Source of the DNA: Candidatus Rifleibacterium amylolyticum
Lineage (GTDB): Bacteria; Muiribacteriota; Ozemobacteria; Ozemobacterales; Ozemobacteraceae
DNA length: 64,000 nt
Direction: 5' to 3'
Assembly (NCBI GenBank): GCA_009917695.1
Contig: JAACJG010000008.1
Coordinates: forward strand, 186,001 to 250,000
Part shown: positions 16,466 through 29,586 of the stretch, piece after piece
How positions within the stretch are numbered: position 1 is the first letter of the stretch
Layout of the letters: every line of letters starts with the position of its first letter
Program-made: the position numbers and the translations under genes
Notes under the pieces: generated by a model
Databases searched by the model: none
Seen by the model: the letters and a program-made list of their open reading frames with translations, nothing else
What the model was told of the DNA's origin: nothing

Positions 16466-17228
16466 GGTTTCCGGGCTCAAGTTGCTGGTTGTATTTCTGC
16501 TCATGTTCGCGACATTGCCACAGGCATTTGCACAGCGAAATGTCTGCAACGAATGTCAGGCGGTAAACGAAGCTGATGCCATCAGATGCAAAGACTGCCT
16601 TACTCCGCTCAACAAGTGCCTTGACTGCGACACCGAGAACCCGGCGAATCTCGATTACTGCAGCAAATGCAACGCTCCATTAGCTGAGATGAGGGTTTTG
16701 GGCTCTATTGACGAACAGACCCGCGAAGATCTCAAATTAGGTCAGTCAGACCGCGCAGTCACCGAAAAAGAGCTCATGAAAATAGCTTATCTGCTCGAAA
16801 AAAAGCCCGAGCAGTCAGAGAAACTCATATATCAGCGCTCCAAGCTGTTCAACCGCATGGAATTCCATTCCCGCGAAGCTGAATCATGGCGCGAATTTCT
16901 CCAGAAATTTCCAGACAGTCCCAAAAAGTCTTCAGCAAAAGTTTTTCTCGCTGAAGCGCTGCGCAAGTGGGCCTACCTGTTCTATCAGCAGAAAGACATG
17001 GAAAGTGCTCTTACCATGCTTCTCGAAGCCGTCGAAGCAAACCCGATGAATGCCGAGGCCTGGGGCTGGGCAGGCCGGATCTACAACGAGACCGGCAAAA
17101 AGAAAGAAGCCGGCGACGCATATCTGAAAGCCCTCGAAGCACGACCGGGCGACCAGAGCTTTATGCATTTCCTGAGACAGTTGCGGGTTGACATTCCCGA
17201 TCATCTGCGGAAACCAGCGGCGAAGTAA
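16443..17228 (+). CDS. Exported zinc-ribbon protein with TPR repeats
   Basis: 261 aa from ATG 16443, preceded at 6 bases by GGAG. A signal peptide (LKLLVVFLLMFATLPQAFA) is followed at once by two zinc ribbons: CNECQ...CKDC and CLDCDTENPANLDYCSKC. Then come about 100 linker residues and TPR helices near the C-terminus (AWGWAGRIYNETGKKKEAGD). Zinc ribbons of this type are nearly always cytoplasmic; an exported one is unusual, and the hydrophobic stretch could instead be an uncleaved anchor. The stop overlaps the next ATG by one base. Function unknown. Confidence 0.75.
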   Translation: MITTAHFKVSGLKLLVVFLLMFATLPQAFAQRNVCNECQAVNEADAIRCKDCLTPLNKCLDCDTENPANLDYCSKCNAPLAEMRVLGSIDEQTREDLKLGQSDRAVTEKELMKIAYLLEKKPEQSEKLIYQRSKLFNRMEFHSREAESWREFLQKFPDSPKKSSAKVFLAEALRKWAYLFYQQKDMESALTMLLEAVEANPMNAEAWGWAGRIYNETGKKKEAGDAYLKALEARPGDQSFMHFLRQLRVDIPDHLRKPAAK

Positions 17229-18667
17229 TGAATAAGAACGACCAACTGCGCGGGCTGGCTGGTGAATTCCTCGCCAGATTCTCACCCGACATGCTTAAAC
17301 AGGTCGATTATCTGTTCGAGCACCTCAAGTCAGACACAGCCAGCAAACTCGAAGTCAATTTCGGCCTCGCCATGCCGCCGGAAATGAGACAAAGGGTGCT
17401 TTACAGCATTGGCATAGAAGACGCCGCCGCCCCGCCGGTTGCCGATCGTTACGTCCCCTATCTGCTCATTCTCAAAAAACTGCTCGATCAGGTTGGCGAC
17501 AACCTCCAGGAAATACGCCAGGAAGAAATTGCCGGCCTGATCTGGCAGGAAGGCCGTCGCATGCGGCTTTTCGAATATGAGATACAACAGCTTATCGACA
17601 TATTTCCTGCCTGGCTGGCCGGAATTTCGCGCAAATACGTCGTCGAAATTTCTCCGGCTAGTATCTGCAAGGTAGATTCCGGTGCAAGTGAAAGCGACGA
17701 TGGCAGCGAAATCGCTTTCAACGGTATAGTTGGCCGGTCTGAAACCATGCGCTCGATGTTTGCCTGCCTAAAAAAAATCAGCGCCAGCAATCTGTCGATC
17801 CTTATTCAGGGCGAAAGCGGCACCGGCAAAGAGCTGGTCGCACATGCGATACATTCATTATCCGACCGCTCCTCACACAGCTTTATTCCGGTTAACTGCG
17901 GCGCCCTGCCAGACACCATTATCGAAAGCGAATTGTTCGGCTATGAAAAGGGCGCCTTCACCGGCGCCGAAAGTCAGAAAAAAGGCTATTTCGAAATCGC
18001 CGACCAGGGAACTATTTTTCTCGATGAAATCACTGAAACATCACTGCCAACGCAGGTTAAACTGCTGCGTGTGTTGCAGGAAAAGCAGTTTTACAGGGTC
18101 GGCGGCACGAAACCAGTGTCGGCCAACTGCCGCATCATAGCAGCCACCAACCGCGACATTCTCGAGATGGCCAAAGACGGAAGCTTTCGTCACGACCTCT
18201 ATTACCGCGTCAACGAAATGACTATCGCCCTGCCCCCGCTGCGCGAGCGCAAAGATGACCTGCCGCTTCTGGTGAAACATTTCCTGAAAAAATTTGCCGA
18301 ACAGAACAAGTGTGAGATACCAGAAGTAGCAAAGGAATCATGGCAGCTGATCAAAAATTACAGCTGGCCGGGCAACATCCGCGAACTTGAAAACGCCTTA
18401 AAACGCGCGGTAGTTCTCGCGGACGCGCAGATACTGCCAGAACATTTCCCACCGGTCATGCTTGACCAGGCCGGAAGGCATACCGCACTACAGGCAGCCG
18501 CCGGCAACGGAACCTACGAGACGCTTATGGAATCGGCCGAACGAGAGATCCTGATCGAGCAGCTTAAAAAGCACAACAACAATGTGTCGAAAACTGCCGA
18601 CGCGCTCGCGATTTCACGCCGAACCCTGCAACGCCGCCTAAAACACCTGGGTATCGAAAAAAACTAA
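17228..18667 (+). CDS. Sigma-54-dependent transcriptional activator
   Basis: 479 aa. The AAA+ domain has Walker A GESGTGKE (195-202), the sigma-54 contact loop GAFTGA (242-247) in ESELFGYEKGAFTGAES, and a C-terminal Fis-type helix-turn-helix (NNNVSKTADALAISRRTLQRRLKHLG). The N-terminal 170 residues are not a receiver, PAS or GAF domain I can name; they are helical (MLKQVDYLFEHLKSD, LLILKKLLDQVGDNLQEIRQ), so the input signal is unknown and may come by protein contact with products of the two upstream overlapping genes. A candidate target is the sigma-54-like element repeated upstream of the TadG-like and TadE genes in this window. Confidence 0.95.
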   Translation: MNKNDQLRGLAGEFLARFSPDMLKQVDYLFEHLKSDTASKLEVNFGLAMPPEMRQRVLYSIGIEDAAAPPVADRYVPYLLILKKLLDQVGDNLQEIRQEEIAGLIWQEGRRMRLFEYEIQQLIDIFPAWLAGISRKYVVEISPASICKVDSGASESDDGSEIAFNGIVGRSETMRSMFACLKKISASNLSILIQGESGTGKELVAHAIHSLSDRSSHSFIPVNCGALPDTIIESELFGYEKGAFTGAESQKKGYFEIADQGTIFLDEITETSLPTQVKLLRVLQEKQFYRVGGTKPVSANCRIIAATNRDILEMAKDGSFRHDLYYRVNEMTIALPPLRERKDDLPLLVKHFLKKFAEQNKCEIPEVAKESWQLIKNYSWPGNIRELENALKRAVVLADAQILPEHFPPVMLDQAGRHTALQAAAGNGTYETLMESAEREILIEQLKKHNNNVSKTADALAISRRTLQRRLKHLGIEKN

Positions 18668-21996: not shown

Positions 21997-22025
21997 TTGA
22001 TTTTGGCTGAAAGTGCGTTTATTAT
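21997..22025 (+). promoter_or_regulatory. Sigma-70 promoter of the BMC operon, placing the start at the ATG
   Basis: TTGATT (21997-22002), a 17-base spacer and TATTAT (22020-22025). The expected transcription start, 6-7 bases on, coincides with ATG 22032, so the first cistron would be translated from a leaderless mRNA. No Shine-Dalgarno is present. Confidence 0.6.
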
Positions 22026-22031
22026 GGGCGC

Positions 22032-23102
22032 ATGAGCAGAAACCAGATTCTTGTCATTACCGATGATCGCAAAGCCCTGCAAGAGAGGCTGACATCAGCA
22101 GCACTCGAAAAATGCCGGCTCACCGGTCTCGAATCTCTTCGCTACCTAGGCTTTGCCAATCTCAGCGCTGTCATCATCGATGCAAAGAGCATAGACAGGA
22201 CACTGCGCAAAGTAAGCCTCGGCATTCGCGATGACGATGCCTCTGATGCGCTCTGGCAACTCCTCGCACAACCAAAAGGCGCACGCGTCTTCTTTCTCGT
22301 CGATAAAATGACGAGACCGGGCAGCGACATGCTCGCCCTCGGCATCGACTACCTGCTCTACGAAAATCTTGAGCAGCTGGTCACAGATGTTAACAGCAGC
22401 TCTCCCAGCCATGGATTTGCTGAAGATAACAGCAACCCGGGCAGACTGCTTACCGCTGACGACATACGTCACCTTCATAAGCAGAATATAAGAAAAATTC
22501 CGGCCGGCAGCCGTCTTACGGCGTGGGCAGCTGAAGTCGCGGAATCACTGAACTTCAGCGAGGCAGCCACCTTTTTGCAGCTTATCTGGCCGGTTGCAAC
22601 AACTTCCGCAACTGCCCTGAAAAAGACACACGAAGAGCTTTTCGACCTCAACGCAAAATACCCCGATCTGTTGTTCATGGTAAATCCAGCCTATCTGCCG
22701 GTATTTAACGATCTATATCCTTCACTCAAGGGCAAAACCGTTTCTCCGGTCATTCACTGGGCCAGCCATGGCGCCTATACCGGCGAAACCTCGGCCGCCA
22801 TGCTTGCCGACCTTCGTTGTGCCGGCGCTGTCGTACCAGCCTGCATGCCATATACCGAGCCAAAACACATCGCAAACCTGCTTAGTCAGGCAAAAGAACA
22901 TGGGCTGACTCTTTTTTCGACTTTTACACTTGCGTCTTCGGGCGTCTGTGATATAATTGCCCCTGAAAGTTCACAACGGGCAACACTGACTCCACTGTAC
23001 AGCGCTGACATGATTGGTGCAGGCGAACTGCCAGAAGGCCCGGCAGCAATACTATTGAATAAAGAACTGTTAAAACGAATCCCTTCAAGGAAAGGATACT
23101 GA
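22032..23102 (+). CDS. BMC-associated protein with degenerate triosephosphate-isomerase-like domain
   Basis: 356 aa, first gene of the microcompartment operon. Three parts are visible. Residues 1-120 alternate strands and helices like a Rossmann or receiver fold (ILVITDD, AVIIDAKS, RVFFLVDK). Residues 139-175 (LLTADDIRHLHKQNIRKIPA, then SRLTAWAAEVAE) resemble the short segment opening EutQ and EutT. Residues about 183-335 follow triosephosphate isomerase: IWP where TIM has NWK, then GAYTGETSAAMLADL (247-261), a near-exact TIM signature, then PACMPY where TIM has the catalytic GHSERR, and YSADMIGAG where TIM has YEPVWAIGTG. All three TIM catalytic residues thus look lost, so isomerase activity is unlikely. 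It could be a ligand-binding, scaffold or re-purposed enzyme of the compartment. The family comparison is from memory. Confidence 0.7.
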   Translation: MSRNQILVITDDRKALQERLTSAALEKCRLTGLESLRYLGFANLSAVIIDAKSIDRTLRKVSLGIRDDDASDALWQLLAQPKGARVFFLVDKMTRPGSDMLALGIDYLLYENLEQLVTDVNSSSPSHGFAEDNSNPGRLLTADDIRHLHKQNIRKIPAGSRLTAWAAEVAESLNFSEAATFLQLIWPVATTSATALKKTHEELFDLNAKYPDLLFMVNPAYLPVFNDLYPSLKGKTVSPVIHWASHGAYTGETSAAMLADLRCAGAVVPACMPYTEPKHIANLLSQAKEHGLTLFSTFTLASSGVCDIIAPESSQRATLTPLYSADMIGAGELPEGPAAILLNKELLKRIPSRKGY

Positions 23103-23108
23103 ACCGGA

Positions 23109-23753
23109 ATGATGGACGAAAAACAGGTAAAAACAATTGTAGCAGAAGTCCTCAAGCACATTGACCTGCACGGCAGAATTAAATCGGGCTCGATTCCCTG
23201 TGGAGTCAGCAACCGCCACCTGCATGTATCGCAGGCCGATCTTGAAACACTTTTTGGCAAAGGTTATGAGCTTAAACAGATGAAACCTCTGTCACAACCA
23301 GGTCAGTATGCCGCAGAAGAAACCGTGCTGCTCGTCGGGCCCAAGGGGTCGATCGAAAAATGCCGCATTCTCGGCCCGGTTCGCCCCGCAACTCAGGTTG
23401 AAGTCTCTACCACCGACTGCTTTAAACTCGGAGTTAAACCGGTTGTAAGAGATTCCGGCAATACCGCCGGCACTCCCGGCCTCGTTCTGGTTGGCCCCGC
23501 CGGCGCAGTAACCATGAAGGAAGGCGTTATCGTCGCTGCCCGCCACATGCACATCAGCGCTGTAGAAGCTGATAAATTCGGTCTTAAAGACATGGACAGG
23601 ATTTCTATCAAGTCTTCCGGTGTCAAATCGGTCATTTTCAACAACGTTCTTGTCCGCGTCAGCGACAAGTTCGCTCTTGATTTCCATCTCGATACGGATG
23701 AAGCCAACGCCGCCGGCATCAAGAACGGCGACATGGTCGAAATAGTAGCATAA
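23109..23753 (+). CDS. pduL: PduL-type phosphotransacylase (BMC-associated)
   Basis: 214 aa. Converts acyl-CoA and phosphate to acyl phosphate and CoA, recycling CoA inside the compartment. Zinc-binding motifs typical of PduL are present in both barrel halves: SNRHLHVS (near residue 38) and ARHMHIS (near 145). Residues 2-18 (MDEKQVKTIVAEVLKHI) form an amphipathic helix ahead of a linker, the usual encapsulation peptide for shell targeting; the aldehyde dehydrogenase carries a very similar one. Starts 6 bases after the preceding stop; ATG 23109 or 23112 are both possible. Confidence 0.93.
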   Translation: MMDEKQVKTIVAEVLKHIDLHGRIKSGSIPCGVSNRHLHVSQADLETLFGKGYELKQMKPLSQPGQYAAEETVLLVGPKGSIEKCRILGPVRPATQVEVSTTDCFKLGVKPVVRDSGNTAGTPGLVLVGPAGAVTMKEGVIVAARHMHISAVEADKFGLKDMDRISIKSSGVKSVIFNNVLVRVSDKFALDFHLDTDEANAAGIKNGDMVEIVA

Positions 23754-23789: not shown

Positions 23790-24083
23790 ATGCAGGAAGC
23801 CCTGGGTATGATTGAAACACGTGGATTAACATCTCTCATCGAAGCCAGCGATGCTATGGTAAAAGCCGCCAACGTTAAACTGGTCGGCTGGGAAAAAATC
23901 GGTTCTGGTTATTGCACCGCTTTTGTAAGAGGCGATGTAGCTGCTGTAAAAGCTGCCACCGACGCCGGCGCCGCTGCTGCCAAGAAGCTTGGTGAGCTGA
24001 TTGCCGTTCACGTAATTCCTCGCCCCCATTCTAACCTTGACGAAATTTACCCGATCCGCGAAGTAACTGGCTCCAAAAAGTAA
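23790..24083 (+). CDS. BMC-H shell protein (PduA/EutM type)
   Basis: 97 aa, a single BMC domain that forms hexamers tiling the shell facets. Typical sequence: [37 protein letters not shown] with lysine-rich edges and VIPRPHSNL near the end. AGGAGG five bases before ATG is the strongest ribosome site of the operon, fitting the high copy number of BMC-H. A stem-loop follows the stop codon. Confidence 0.95.
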
Positions 24084-24141: not shown

Positions 24142-24423
24142 ATGATACTTGGCCGCGTATGTGGTACAGTTGTCTGTACCCGCAAAGATGAAAGCCTTGT
24201 CGGTCTCAAACTGCTTGTAGTCGAGGAATTGACTCTCGCCGGTGCGAAGCCGACCGGAAATCACGTCGTTGCCGCTGACGCGGTTGGAGCCGGCGCCTCA
24301 GAGAAAGTTCTGGTCGTTGCCGGCAGCTCGGCACGTCTGACCGAGCGCACGCTCAAAAAACCGGTTGATGCCGCAGTATGTGCGATAGTCGATCAGGTGG
24401 TCTTCGATTCAGAACGTTCCTGA
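24142..24423 (+). CDS. BMC-P shell vertex protein (EutN/CcmL family)
   Basis: 93 aa. Pentamers of this family cap the vertices of the icosahedral shell. The sequence MILGRVCGTVVCTRKDESLVG, then LKLLVV and GAGASEKVLVVAGSSAR, matches the family closely, including the VGAGxGExVLxxxGSSAR-like core. Only one BMC-P is present, consistent with a minimal shell of one H, one P and one T protein. Confidence 0.93.
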   Translation: MILGRVCGTVVCTRKDESLVGLKLLVVEELTLAGAKPTGNHVVAADAVGAGASEKVLVVAGSSARLTERTLKKPVDAAVCAIVDQVVFDSERS

Positions 24424-24458: not shown

Positions 24459-25865
24459 ATGAGCGTTTCAAGGGAAGATTTGCAACTCATAGTATCGGAA
24501 GTGCTCAAGAAAATCGGTACCGGCACTCTCCCGACACCATCTGTCGCCAGCGGCAGAGGCAGAGGTATTTTTGATTCGGTCGATGATGCGGTAGCTGCTG
24601 CTACCCGCGCCCAGAAACAGCTGGTAGACCTGCCGCTGAAAACCCGTGCAGCAATTATTGCCAATATGCGCAAACGCGCGCTCGAAAAGGTCGAAGAGCT
24701 GGCAAAACTGGCTAATCAGGAAACCGGCTACGGCAGAGTTGATGACAAGATTCAAAAAAACAAGCTCGTCATCGAAAAAACGCCCGGCGTCGAAGACCTC
24801 GTTCCTGAGGCCTGCAGCGGCGATCATGGGCTGACTCTGACCGAACGCGCACCTTATGGCGTCATCGGAGCCATCACTCCGTCTACGAACCCGACGGCAA
24901 CAGTTATAAACAATTCTATCAGCATGGTTTCAGCCGGTAACGCAGTTGTTTTTGCACCGCATCCGGCGGCGGCGAAATGCAGTCAGTTCGCCATGAGCGT
25001 GCTTAATGACGCCATTGTCGAAGCCGGCGGCCCGGAGAATGTTCTGGTAACAGTAGCCAGCGCCAGCATCGAAAACGCCCAGAAAATCATGACTCACCCC
25101 GGAATCAGGCTTCTGGCCGTTACCGGTGGCCCTGCCGTCGTTGAAGCCGCCTCGAAATCGCGCAAAAAGTATGTCGCAGCCGGCCCCGGCAATCCGCCCG
25201 CCGTCGTCGATGAAACTGCCGATCTCAAAAAGGCCGCGCGTGACATAGTTTCTGGCGCAAGTCTCGACAACAACGTGCTCTGCATTGCCGAAAAAGAAAT
25301 TATCGTCGTCGAGTCGGTCGCCGACGAGCTCAAAAAGCACCTGCGCAACAGCGGTGCCTACGAAGCTTCGCCGCGCGAAATAGCTCAGCTCGAAAAAGTC
25401 TGCCTCGATGCCAAGGGAATGCCCAATCGCAAACTGGTTGGACGCAACGCCTCGGTGATCATGCAGGAAATCGGCGTCAATATCCCGCCCGAAACCCGCA
25501 TCGTCCTCTGCGAAACAGCTCCCGATCATCCGTTTGTCGTCGAAGAACTCCTGATGCCGGTCATTCCACTGGTCAGAGTGCGCGACGTTCACGCCGCCAT
25601 CGACCTTGCGGTCAAGGTCGAACATGGCAACCGCCACACCGCGGTAATGCACAGCAAAAACATCGACAATCTGCACAAGATGGCACGCATGTGTGACTGC
25701 AGTATCTTCGTCAAGAACGGACCCAGCTACGCCGGACTCGGTCTCGGTGGTGAAGGCACCACAACCATGACCATCGCCTCGCCGACCGGTGAAGGCATCA
25801 CAACCGCTCGGTCATTCACCCGTCTGCGGCGCTGCGTGATCGTCGATTCTTTCAGAATCGTCTAA
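24459..25865 (+). CDS. CoA-acylating aldehyde dehydrogenase (PduP/EutE type)
   Basis: 468 aa. Oxidises an aldehyde to acyl-CoA with NAD. The catalytic cysteine is C275 in DNNVLCIAEKE, and TPSTNPTATVINN plus VTGGPAVVEAA form the cofactor site, as in PduP/EutE. The N-terminal helix SREDLQLIVSEVLKKIG followed by a Gly/Pro/Ser linker is an encapsulation peptide nearly matching that of PduL. Substrate cannot be read directly; acetaldehyde is the simplest guess from the sugar-phosphate genes around it. The GGAG ribosome site overlaps a stem-loop. Confidence 0.94.
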   Translation: MSVSREDLQLIVSEVLKKIGTGTLPTPSVASGRGRGIFDSVDDAVAAATRAQKQLVDLPLKTRAAIIANMRKRALEKVEELAKLANQETGYGRVDDKIQKNKLVIEKTPGVEDLVPEACSGDHGLTLTERAPYGVIGAITPSTNPTATVINNSISMVSAGNAVVFAPHPAAAKCSQFAMSVLNDAIVEAGGPENVLVTVASASIENAQKIMTHPGIRLLAVTGGPAVVEAASKSRKKYVAAGPGNPPAVVDETADLKKAARDIVSGASLDNNVLCIAEKEIIVVESVADELKKHLRNSGAYEASPREIAQLEKVCLDAKGMPNRKLVGRNASVIMQEIGVNIPPETRIVLCETAPDHPFVVEELLMPVIPLVRVRDVHAAIDLAVKVEHGNRHTAVMHSKNIDNLHKMARMCDCSIFVKNGPSYAGLGLGGEGTTTMTIASPTGEGITTARSFTRLRRCVIVDSFRIV

Positions 25866-25880
25866 TTAAACAGGTTATAA

Positions 25881-27194
25881 ATGGTAAACGTTGATTTCTC
25901 TCAACTGGGCCTGACCGGCTGCGGTGGCGCCGGATTTCCGACCCACGTCAAGCTGGCAGCCCGCAACGTCGATGCGGTTATCGTCAATGCCGCCGAATGT
26001 GAGCCTCTGCTTCATAAAGATAAAGAGATCATGCGCCATTGCAGCGAAGATTTCTTCAAAGGTCTGATCAGAGTTCTCGATATAACCGGTGCCAAAACCG
26101 GATATATCGGCATGAAAAAGAAATATGCCGACCTGCTTAACTGGCTCTCGAAAAATCTGCCGGATCCGCGCATAAAGATGCTGCCCCTTGGCGACTTTTA
26201 TCCGGCCGGTGATGAATACGAACTGGTCTACGAAGCCACCGGAAGACTGATTCCGCATGGCGGCATTCCGCTCAATATCGGCTGCGTCGTTATGAACGTA
26301 GAAACTCTGCTCAATATAGGACGCAACCAGCCTTTCATCAGCAAGTTTCTCACTCTTGCCGGGATGGTCCCTCACCCCTGCACCATCGAAGTGCCCATCG
26401 GCATTACTGTGCGCGAGGCTCTCGAACTGAGCGGACTCAAGAAACTTGACGGACTGAAAGTAATTGACGGCGGCCCGATGATGGGCAAACTCATCGATAA
26501 CCCGGATACTGCTATTGTCAGCAAAACCTGTGGCGGCCTGATCGCATTGCCGGCCGATCACGTTCTGATCAGAAAAATGTCGAACAGCGACAAAAAAAAT
26601 TCGCAGATAGCACGCTCCGCCTGTGATCAATGCACCGACTGCTCAGAACTCTGCCCGCGCGCATTGCTCGGTTACCCGATACGGCCGCACAAGGCCATGC
26701 GCACAGCTCAGTTTGCACCTTACGCTGAAAGCAACTATGCCGTAGACTCGGTGTTCTGTAGCGAATGCGGCCTGTGCTCACTGTTTTCATGCCCCGAAGA
26801 CCTGCCTCCCCGCGAGATGTGCATGCTTTCAAAAAAGTATCATCTCAGCAAAGGCGTTAAACTTGCAGAATTTCCGGGCGAACCGCAGATTCACCCGATG
26901 CGTTCAGTTCGCCGCGTCAGCATCGAACGCCTGATCAAAAAACTCGCCCTGCTCGACTACGATCACAAAGCACCGCTGCAGCAGATAAACAAAAATTTCG
27001 ACAAGGTAACCCTGCCGCTCAAAATGCACATCGGCGCCCCTTCTGTGCCGGTTGTCAAAGCTGGCGACAGGGTCGGTGCCGGGCAACTCATCGCAGTGAT
27101 ACCCGAGGGCAAACTCGGAGCCGCACTGCATGCGTCGATAAGCGGCAAAATAGCTTCGGTCAGCGACCAGGCAATTGTCATAGTCAGAGAATGA
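25881..27194 (+). CDS. PduS-like/RnfC-like iron-sulfur flavoprotein
   Basis: 437 aa. The N-terminal half is an RnfC/NuoF-like FMN and NADH-binding module (GLTGCGGAGFPTHVKLA, NAAECEPLLHKDKE, PLGDFYPAGDEYELVYEATG) with an SLBB segment. It is followed by two 4Fe-4S motifs, CDQCTDCSELCP and CSECGLCSLFSCP, and a C-terminal lipoyl-like strand domain (VKAGDRVGAGQLIAVIPEGKLGA). In the Pdu system PduS is an NADH-dependent cobalamin reductase; B12 enzymes are absent here, so its likely job is to oxidise NADH made by the aldehyde dehydrogenase and pass electrons to the PduT-like pore. Confidence 0.92.
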   Translation: MVNVDFSQLGLTGCGGAGFPTHVKLAARNVDAVIVNAAECEPLLHKDKEIMRHCSEDFFKGLIRVLDITGAKTGYIGMKKKYADLLNWLSKNLPDPRIKMLPLGDFYPAGDEYELVYEATGRLIPHGGIPLNIGCVVMNVETLLNIGRNQPFISKFLTLAGMVPHPCTIEVPIGITVREALELSGLKKLDGLKVIDGGPMMGKLIDNPDTAIVSKTCGGLIALPADHVLIRKMSNSDKKNSQIARSACDQCTDCSELCPRALLGYPIRPHKAMRTAQFAPYAESNYAVDSVFCSECGLCSLFSCPEDLPPREMCMLSKKYHLSKGVKLAEFPGEPQIHPMRSVRRVSIERLIKKLALLDYDHKAPLQQINKNFDKVTLPLKMHIGAPSVPVVKAGDRVGAGQLIAVIPEGKLGAALHASISGKIASVSDQAIVIVRE

Positions 27195-27204
27195 GGTAAG
27201 ATAA

Positions 27205-27762
27205 ATGAATATCCACGGAAATGCCATCGGCCTGATTGAACTTTCCAGCATTTCTACCGGCTATCTGGTGACAGATGCCATGCTCAAGACCGCTTCGGTC
27301 GAGCTGGTTCTCTCGCGCACCGTCTGCCCGGGCAAATTCATCTGCCTCGTCTGGGGCGATGTCGCAGCCGTCGAAGCCAGCGTTGCCGCCGGTATTCAAC
27401 TCGGTCAGGGCTATCTTGTCAACGACCTCGTCATTCCGAACCTGCACCCGCAGATTTACCCAGCTATAACCGCTACCAATCAGATTACCGAGACCGGTGC
27501 GCTCGGAGTCATCGAAACTTTCGACATAGTTTCAACAATTCTTGCCGCCGATGCTTCGGTCAAAGCCGCTGACGTAAACCTGTGCGAACTGCGCATTGCC
27601 ATGGCCATCGGTGGCAAAGCCTTTTACACCATGACCGGTGACGTTGCCGCAGTCGAAGCTGCAGTAAAAGCCGGCCTCGAATCACTCGAAGGCAAAGGTC
27701 TCGTCGTTCATCATGTCGTCATTCCAAGGCCGCGCCCCGAGCTGTTCAGGGAGTTCATCTGA
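27205..27762 (+). CDS. Tandem BMC-domain shell trimer (PduT-like)
   Basis: 185 aa, two BMC domains in tandem. C41 in LSRTVCPGKF corresponds to the cysteine of PduT (SKTICPGKF) that holds a 4Fe-4S cluster at the trimer pore, so this shell protein probably conducts electrons or carries the cluster. The second domain starts near GALGVIETFDIVSTILAAD and ends with VVIPRPRPELF. Placement directly after the PduS-like gene supports a functional pair. GAGG lies upstream of the ATG; its stop overlaps the rpiB start. Confidence 0.93.
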   Translation: MNIHGNAIGLIELSSISTGYLVTDAMLKTASVELVLSRTVCPGKFICLVWGDVAAVEASVAAGIQLGQGYLVNDLVIPNLHPQIYPAITATNQITETGALGVIETFDIVSTILAADASVKAADVNLCELRIAMAIGGKAFYTMTGDVAAVEAAVKAGLESLEGKGLVVHHVVIPRPRPELFREFI

Positions 27763-28211
27763 TGCCAAGAATTTATCTCGGCGCCGATCACGGCGGTTTT
27801 CCACACAAAGAAGAGCTAAAAAAATATCTGATCGAAAAGGGACACGTTGTCGAAGATATGGGTGCCTATTCGACGTCTCCAGTCGACTACCCTGATATCG
27901 CCTATCTGGTAGCTGCCTCGGTCGCCAGAAATCCGCTGAGCCTTGGCATAGTCATCGATGGCGCCGGAATCGGCTCATGCATGGCTGCCAACAAGGTTCC
28001 CGGCATTCGTGCCGCCTGCTGCAACGATCTTTATACTGCCCGCAACAGCCGCGAACACAATCACGCCAATATTTTGACCCTTGGCAGTATGGTAATCGGC
28101 ACCGGCTACATGAAGCAGATCGTCGATCTCTGGCTGGCAACCGCTCCGGCCCCCGGTCGCCACGCCGACCGCGTTGCCAAGATCATGCAACTGGAACGCC
28201 TGACCGGCTGA
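27762..28211 (+). CDS. rpiB: Ribose-5-phosphate isomerase B
   Basis: 149 aa, LacA/B-RpiB family. Interconverts ribose 5-phosphate and ribulose 5-phosphate. Motifs: YLGADHGGF at the N-terminus, DGAGIGSCMAANKVPGIRAA with the catalytic Cys loop, and the signature NSREHNHANILTLGSMVIG. Its start overlaps the shell-protein stop by one base, so it is firmly part of the BMC operon. RpiB plus an acylating aldehyde dehydrogenase is the hallmark gene set of sugar-phosphate-utilising compartments. No targeting peptide is visible, so it may act outside the shell. Confidence 0.93.
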   Translation: MPRIYLGADHGGFPHKEELKKYLIEKGHVVEDMGAYSTSPVDYPDIAYLVAASVARNPLSLGIVIDGAGIGSCMAANKVPGIRAACCNDLYTARNSREHNHANILTLGSMVIGTGYMKQIVDLWLATAPAPGRHADRVAKIMQLERLTG

Positions 28212-28366: not shown

Positions 28367-28395
28367 TTGCATGTGCATCGATGAAATTGTATATT
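28367..28395 (+). promoter_or_regulatory. Sigma-70 promoter for deoB
   Basis: TTGCAT (28367-28372), a 17-base spacer and TATATT (28390-28395). Start near 28402; the leader holds AAAGGAAAG before ATG 28441. It makes deoB separately controllable from the BMC operon. Confidence 0.6.
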
Positions 28396-28440
28396 TTTTT
28401 AGAATCATTTAACTCACACGAAGCAAAAGGAAAGAAAAAT

Positions 28441-29586
28441 ATGAGAGCAATATGCATAGTACTCGACAGCGCCGGCATTGCGCCGATGCCTGATCAGCAC
28501 GAATACGGCGATATCGGCGCCGCAACTATCCCAAACATAGCTAAGGCCACTGGCGGTATCGATCTGCCAACCATGCAAAACATGGGACTCGGCAATATAA
28601 CCGCGATCGAAGGTGTGCCACCGGCAGATTCGCCTAGCGCATCTTACGGTATGATGTATGAACTGTCACCTGGCAAGGACACCACTACCGGTCACTGGGA
28701 GATGATGGGCATGAAACTGGATTTCGCTTTTCCAGTTTTTCCCGAGGGTTTTCCGAAGGACTTTATCGAGAAATATGAAGCCGCCATTGGCCGCCAGACT
28801 CTCGCCAACTATCCGGCTTCCGGCACCGAGATCATCAACCAGCTTGGCGACGAACACGTTAAAACCGGCAAACCCATAGTCTACACCTCGGCTGACTCGG
28901 TCTTTCAGGTTGCTGCGCACGAGGAAGTAATTCCGGTTCCTGAACTGTATCGCATCTGCCAGATTGCCCGCGACATGCTGCAACCGCCAGAACTCGGTGC
29001 AGCCCGCGTCATTGCGCGCCCGTTTCTTGGTTCTTCCGGTAATTACACTCGCACCCCTAACCGCCACGACTTCAGTTTGACACCTTCAGAAACAGTTCTG
29101 GATGTGCTTAAAGCCAAAGGCATCCCGACCTACGGCATTGGCAAAATCTACGACATTTTCGCCGGTCAGGGCGTAGAACCGCATGTAACCACCAAAAGCA
29201 ACGAAGATGGCATGCAGAAAACACTTGAAGCGCTCGACAAAATCAAGTCTGGCCTGATCTTCACCAATCTCGTCGATACCGACATGAAATACGGCCATCG
29301 CCGCGATGTACATGGTTACCGTGCTTCACTCATGGAATTCGACACCTGGCTTGCCGAATTCATCAACAAACTTGAAGATGACGATGTGCTGATCATCACT
29401 GCCGATCACGGCTGCGACCCGACCTACAAGGGCTCCGATCATACCCGCGAAGCCGTGCCGCTGCTGGTATACCAGAAGGGCAAGCCCGGCAAAGACCTCG
29501 GAATCCGCCAGGGCTTCTGGGACGTGGCCGCCACCATCGCCGCCCATCTTGGCGTCGAATACAAAAACGGCACCTCAACGCTCTAA
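28441..29586 (+). CDS. deoB: Phosphopentomutase
   Basis: 381 aa from ATG 28441, which AAAGGAAAG precedes; the longer frame begins inside the promoter. Interconverts (deoxy)ribose 1-phosphate and 5-phosphate, linking nucleoside phosphorolysis to pentose-phosphate use. Alkaline-phosphatase-superfamily signatures: VLDSAGIAPMPDQ (metal), PGKDTTTGHWEMMG (phosphorylated Thr), NLVDTDMKYGHRRD and ITADHGCDPTYKGSDHTREAVP. It follows the BMC operon by 230 bases on the same strand and would feed ribose or deoxyribose 5-phosphate to RpiB or to an aldolase that is not in the window. Confidence 0.95.
   Translation: MRAICIVLDSAGIAPMPDQHEYGDIGAATIPNIAKATGGIDLPTMQNMGLGNITAIEGVPPADSPSASYGMMYELSPGKDTTTGHWEMMGMKLDFAFPVFPEGFPKDFIEKYEAAIGRQTLANYPASGTEIINQLGDEHVKTGKPIVYTSADSVFQVAAHEEVIPVPELYRICQIARDMLQPPELGAARVIARPFLGSSGNYTRTPNRHDFSLTPSETVLDVLKAKGIPTYGIGKIYDIFAGQGVEPHVTTKSNEDGMQKTLEALDKIKSGLIFTNLVDTDMKYGHRRDVHGYRASLMEFDTWLAEFINKLEDDDVLIITADHGCDPTYKGSDHTREAVPLLVYQKGKPGKDLGIRQGFWDVAATIAAHLGVEYKNGTSTL

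Follow-up and report, generated by a model that had tools for sequence, protein, structure and literature searches.

A triosephosphate isomerase-derived protein with an EutQ-like segment, encoded at the head of a microcompartment operon in Candidatus Riflebacteria, is a candidate shell–cargo adaptor

In a Candidatus Riflebacteria genome, a nine-gene bacterial microcompartment (BMC) operon begins with the gene of a protein of 356 amino acids, here called P0001. Residues 181–297 of P0001 derive from triosephosphate isomerase (TIM), and the protein is probably not an enzyme but a structural adaptor tying enzymes to the organelle shell. More specifically, we lean towards regarding P0001 as a pseudoenzyme that serves as the shell–cargo adaptor of a sugar-phosphate (SPU-like) microcompartment. 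The window (the whole stretch of DNA analysed, 64,000 nucleotides) belongs to contig C8 of a 5.4-Mb genome; the genes of the operon lie on the same strand with tight spacing (Table 1). The ortholog set comprises 17 sequences from draft metagenome genomes, that is, P0001 and 16 others of the same Riflebacteria family, referred to below as the P0001 family.

Table 1. Positions in the window of the P0001 gene, the regions of its product, the promoter-like element, and the other genes of the operon
Feature	Position	Strand	Remarks
Promoter-like -35/-10, TTGATT-17-TATTAT	21997..22025	+	-10 ends 6 bases before ATG
TIM-derived, EutQ-segment-bearing protein (P0001)	22032..23102	+	356 aa
N-terminal alpha/beta domain, residues 1–121	22032..22394	+	predicted (beta-alpha)5; without known family
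EutQ-like two-helix segment, residues 139–177	22446..22562	+	LTADDIR...LTxWAxEVAxSL; profile matches
TIM-derived beta1–beta5 half, residues 181–297	22572..22922	+	catalytic Lys/His columns unconserved
TIM loop 3, GAYTGETSAAM, residues 247–257	22770..22802	+	invariant positions in family
Shrunken remnant of TIM second half, residues 320–356	22989..23099	+	without helices 5–7 and phosphate loops 7/8
PduL phosphotransacylase	23109..23753	+	family match; encapsulation-peptide-like N-terminus by reading
BMC-H shell protein	23790..24083	+	shell-domain match and synteny
EutN/BMC-P vertex protein	24142..24423	+	sequence and conserved synteny
CoA-acylating aldehyde dehydrogenase (ALDH, EutE/PduP type)	24459..25865	+	encapsulation-peptide-like N-terminus
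PduS/RnfC-like flavin/FeS electron carrier	25881..27194	+	family match
BMC-T shell protein	27205..27762	+	family match
RpiB sugar-phosphate isomerase	27762..28211	+	family match (pfam02502)
Phosphopentomutase (DeoB)	28381..29586	+	family match

The original prediction, made from the sequence, had pointed to a TIM signature at residues 247–261 (GAYTGETSAAMLADL), and the match is real. P0001 scores 23.9 bits against Pfam TIM (gathering score 20.1; E 3.5e-5; residues 211–268), and 17/17 orthologues in the phylum pass the same cut-off independently at the same place. The profile of the C-terminal domain aligns with 12 intact TIM-family proteins over 105 columns (HHalign 98.5%, E 2e-15), and retrieves TIMs from PDB with a best E of 1e-7. 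The predicted model of residues 180–356 (pLDDT 82.6, pTM 0.79) has among its top 50 Foldseek matches exclusively TIMs and the related L-erythrulose-1-phosphate isomerases, with TM-scores of about 0.5 on the query; as modelled, the fold is TIM-related, as the original prediction required, yet it is not a normal barrel. A chance match to the signature is ruled out by the orthologues together with the profile–profile and fold comparisons. What P0001 shares with TIM is homology over beta1–beta5 and a loop 3 identical at the invariant positions; it differs in the loss of the catalytic Lys, His, and Glu, in the deletion of loops 7/8 and helices 5–7, and in size (about 177 residues in the TIM-derived domain vs. 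about 250 in TIM).

The loss of the active site is seen in the joint alignment of the 17 orthologues with intact TIM-family proteins, in which all three catalytic residues are invariant in the intact proteins. Here, the catalytic Lys column of the P0001 family reads AAEIISDRRFAKESRSA, with Lys in 1/17; the His column reads AAAAPANPADANDHASE, with His in 1/17; and Glu is retained by none of the 17. An intact but misaligned active site is ruled out by this alignment. Hence, the replacement of NWK by IWP and of GHSERR by PACMPY, as read originally, holds in essence; the reading of YSADMIGAG as the counterpart of YEPVWAIGTG is partly a coincidence, with IGAG unconserved in the orthologues. Helices 5–7 are missing in the family, and phosphate loops 7/8 have been deleted or can no longer be recognised; phosphate-binding loops 6–8 with a complete eight-strand barrel were not found in the P0001 family.

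The resemblance to the start of EutQ, also noted originally, is supported by the family: in 14 of the 17 orthologues, the region of residues 139–177 matches the NCBIfam EutQ model (best E 2.3e-5), while P0001 alone gives a weak match (E 0.05–0.11). These residues align to EutQ positions 3–44, spanning helices H1/H2. In Salmonella EutQ, H1/H2 (residues 9–41) bind the shell, and H3/H4 bind the encapsulation peptides of the cargo (PMC12487888). P0001 has in common with EutQ the 39-residue segment and a gene located with shell genes; it differs in having the TIM remnant and the alpha/beta domain, and neither the EutQ cupin domain (no match to PF06249) nor the cargo-binding helices H3/H4 were detected in it. 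No other protein of this genome shows the segment (next match E 0.9), and a search of this genome for EutQ yielded none of full length, but one short partial cupin match. The segment also weakly matches PduM and EutT (single members each) and TIGR02536 (two members). By sequence, this suggests that the shell-binding segment of EutQ is a portable module. Another sign of portability comes from SPU loci of Bacillus and Neobacillus, where a TIGR02536-type protein encoded after PduL has an EutQ-like segment at its C-terminus (L048:6923–7666, L068:2189–2938).

The N-terminal part, described originally as Rossmann-like, is indeed predicted to be alpha/beta, with five strands (pLDDT about 80), although family searches returned no match for it, and no known sensor domain was recognised in it by sequence. 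Its alignment among orthologues shows conserved positions K60, L63–G64, D67, W75, and L103. Kinship with the flavoprotein-like domain fused to DERA (see below) or with TIGR02536 was rejected (hhalign probability about 1% or less). The AlphaFold model of full-length P0001 has pTM 0.49, and does not fix the relative placement of the domains.

That the P0001 gene heads the operon agrees with the promoter-like element directly before its ATG. A single match to this consensus, taken alone, is at chance level; here, a TAT[TC]AT-like box at a similar distance from the ATG is seen at most of the 12 orthologous loci compared. Since the -10-like box ends so close to the start codon and recurs in most of these relatives, the operon transcript is probably leaderless, with the P0001 gene first. 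No sigma-54 promoter pattern was found upstream of the P0001 gene. A gene for a sigma-54-dependent activator (window positions 17228–18667) precedes uvrB and the BMC operon, an arrangement kept in synteny in several related genomes.

The enzymes of the operon fit a known type of metabolism. Phosphopentomutase yields deoxyribose 5-phosphate, DERA converts it to acetaldehyde and glyceraldehyde 3-phosphate, and ALDH with PduL lead on to acetyl phosphate. The route from phosphopentomutase through DERA and ALDH to PduL is that of the SPU scheme (PMC4207490, PMC8217296), and PMC4207490 reports a TIM at an SPU locus of Atribacteria. RpiB, one of the SPU criteria, is present in the locus; the DeoC aldolase (pfam01791) is absent from it and present elsewhere in the genome, where a DERA of 510 aa with an encapsulation-peptide-like N-terminus is encoded on contig C13, unlinked to the operon. 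Most genomes of this Riflebacteria family have its full-length counterpart. The DERA gene (L037:8828–10360, on G000:C13) is also fused to a flavoprotein-like domain, with weak matches to Pfam Flavoprotein and DUF6587. Compared with SPU microcompartments (Axen 2014; Sutter 2021), the system shares RpiB, EutE-type ALDH, PduL, shell genes, and a genomic DERA with an encapsulation-peptide-like N-terminus; it differs in that DERA is unlinked, TIM is replaced at the locus by a pseudoenzyme, and phosphopentomutase stands at the operon end. The best reading of the compartment is a split-aldolase, SPU-like one of the sugar-phosphate type. As the triose phosphate released by DERA is the substrate of TIM, a TIM-derived adaptor in this setting is suggestive.

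Intact counterparts of the TIM-derived domain occur in other compartments. In another Riflebacteria family (f8; genomes G036–G038), a full TIM with intact active-site residues is preceded by an EutQ-like segment (EutQ E 9e-5), which aligns with the segment of the P0001 family in profile comparison (85%, E 6e-6) and stands in the same order before beta1. P0001 probably arose from an active compartment-targeted TIM with the segment-then-barrel order that f8 still retains intact. In two Bacillus-type SPU loci, of Bacillus and Neobacillus, the TIM encoded between BMC-H and RpiB starts with an encapsulation-peptide-like stretch. In the genome of P0001, one full-length TIM was found (G000:C2:454567–455301), and it is untagged. 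In family f8, the neighbours of DERA and phosphopentomutase also include a protein of 764 aa whose N-terminal stretch is DERA-like (L152:5594–7888).

The homolog search confirmed the association with BMC genes, as all 17 genes of the P0001 family directly precede PduL, and the P0001 gene turned up in no place without the shell operon. In genus g11 (four genomes), there is neither a shell gene nor a P0001 ortholog; ALDH, PduS, and RpiB are gone from the locus, while PduL is kept, adjoining phosphopentomutase. The g11 loci L146, L147, L149, and L150 have the appearance of whole-compartment loss, and at L149 phosphopentomutase is split into two ORFs. Three genomes of the same family as P0001 but without its ortholog (G007, G015, G023) are incomplete and also lack PduL. 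In family f3, the SPU operon includes DERA but no P0001-like protein, hence P0001 is not universally needed; an f3 SPU operon has, inserted between its PduS and BMC-T genes, the gene of a 484-aa protein without family assignment (L145:5976–7430). In a scan of contigs from named genomes, two of the matches listed are true orthologues, both from Candidatus Riflebacteria, and the remaining matches listed encode TIM-family proteins. One additional BMC-domain gene (117 aa; G000:C3:404059–404241, minus strand; L153:4030–4383) stands alone outside the operon, adjoining a NifU/IscU-like gene, with similar lone copies in several other genomes of the same Riflebacteria family.

P0001 is under purifying selection and evolves fast. 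Its dN/dS is 0.11–0.36, with dS saturated in several pairs, and its amino-acid identity is 0.64–0.76, where PduL, ALDH, and PduS from the same pairs of genomes reach 0.80–0.95. A decaying pseudogene is ruled out by the open frame in 17 genomes and by dN/dS well below 1.

Three roles had been suggested originally, namely, a compartment scaffold, a phosphosugar sensor, and an aldolase-type enzyme. The first is favoured because of the EutQ-like shell-binding segment, the shell-dependent presence, the absence of a conserved active site, and the fast evolution. By analogy with H1/H2 of Salmonella EutQ, the segment of P0001 would dock on the shell; cargo would be held by the N-terminal alpha/beta domain, the TIM remnant, or both, and P0001 would in this way link the enzymes to the shell as the compartment assembles. 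No counterpart of H3/H4 was detected, so that contact with cargo is a guess. Against the adaptor stand the weak EutQ match of P0001 itself and the N-terminal domain, in which K60, G64, and D67 are conserved and which could bind a ligand.

Two further readings turn on loop 3, which is the best-conserved element of the TIM-derived domain (mean pairwise identity 0.75 vs. 0.26 for loop 1/helix 1). Its family pattern is GA[FY]TGExSxxM, in which all 17 sequences share the G, A, T, G, E, S, and M, and together with the neighbouring helix 3 it makes up the conserved surface. In TIM, the socket of loop 3 is presumably lined by N10, K12, Q65, N66, H96, E98, and R99; the matching positions have diverged in the P0001 family, whereas in intact TIMs both loop 3 and the socket are conserved. 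It is possible, though on balance not likely, that loop 3 serves self-association only, P0001 being a homo-oligomeric core that nucleates cargo without recruiting TIM. The conserved surface is consistent with this, as is the dimerisation of EutQ itself through its C-terminal domain (PMC12487888); the unconserved socket positions argue against it, but the family could have evolved a new socket.

Rather doubtful is a stronger form of the adaptor reading, in which the same loop would enter the dimer socket of the untagged genomic TIM, and the heteromer would carry active TIM into the compartment, the place where DERA releases glyceraldehyde 3-phosphate. Loop 3 of TIM does interdigitate between subunits (PMC4664265), and its invariance in the P0001 family, where the socket positions have diverged, is in line with such a role. 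A compartment TIM also makes sense given the tagged TIMs in the Bacillus and Neobacillus SPU loci and in f8, while the sole full TIM found here is untagged. However, the contact made by loop 3 could also be homomeric or of some other kind, and we know of no precedent in which TIM forms a heterodimer with a partner that is truncated. As a speculative and unlikely extension, a dead, shrunken TIM retained for loop 3, fixed to the shell through its EutQ-like segment and capturing an ordinary untagged TIM via that loop, would exemplify recruitment of a housekeeping enzyme by a pseudo-subunit.

An improbable alternative is a sensor or regulator, in which the compartment would be tuned through phosphosugar binding by the N-terminal domain and the TIM remnant; the conserved K60/G64/D67 and the first position in the operon would suit this role, but the phosphate loops 7/8 of TIM are absent and no known sensor domain is apparent by sequence. 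Least credible by far is an enzyme that has diverged and gained another active site: despite purifying selection and a location among metabolic genes, none of His, Lys, Arg, and Cys is invariant in the TIM-derived domain across the 17 orthologues, the protein changes faster than PduL, ALDH, and PduS, and the pathway aldolase and a TIM are encoded elsewhere in the genome. The originally proposed aldolase-type enzyme in particular is not supported, as P0001 shows no match to the DeoC profile and no invariant Lys in its C-terminal domain, and the presence of a proper unlinked DERA rules it out as the missing aldolase of the operon.

The proposed role of the adaptor is that of the known shell–cargo linkers CcmN, CsoS2, and the N-terminus of PduB; P0001 differs from them in its ancestor enzyme, and we know of no sequence relation between them. 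CcmN likewise comes from an enzyme fold, a carbonic-anhydrase-like one. To our knowledge, the choice of cargo and its attachment to the shell are understood for only a few compartments. Here, tagged intact TIMs and a similarly tagged dead TIM in one lineage offer a direct view of the passage from enzyme to scaffold, and the EutQ shell-binding segment, if a portable module, would be testable as such and useful for engineering.
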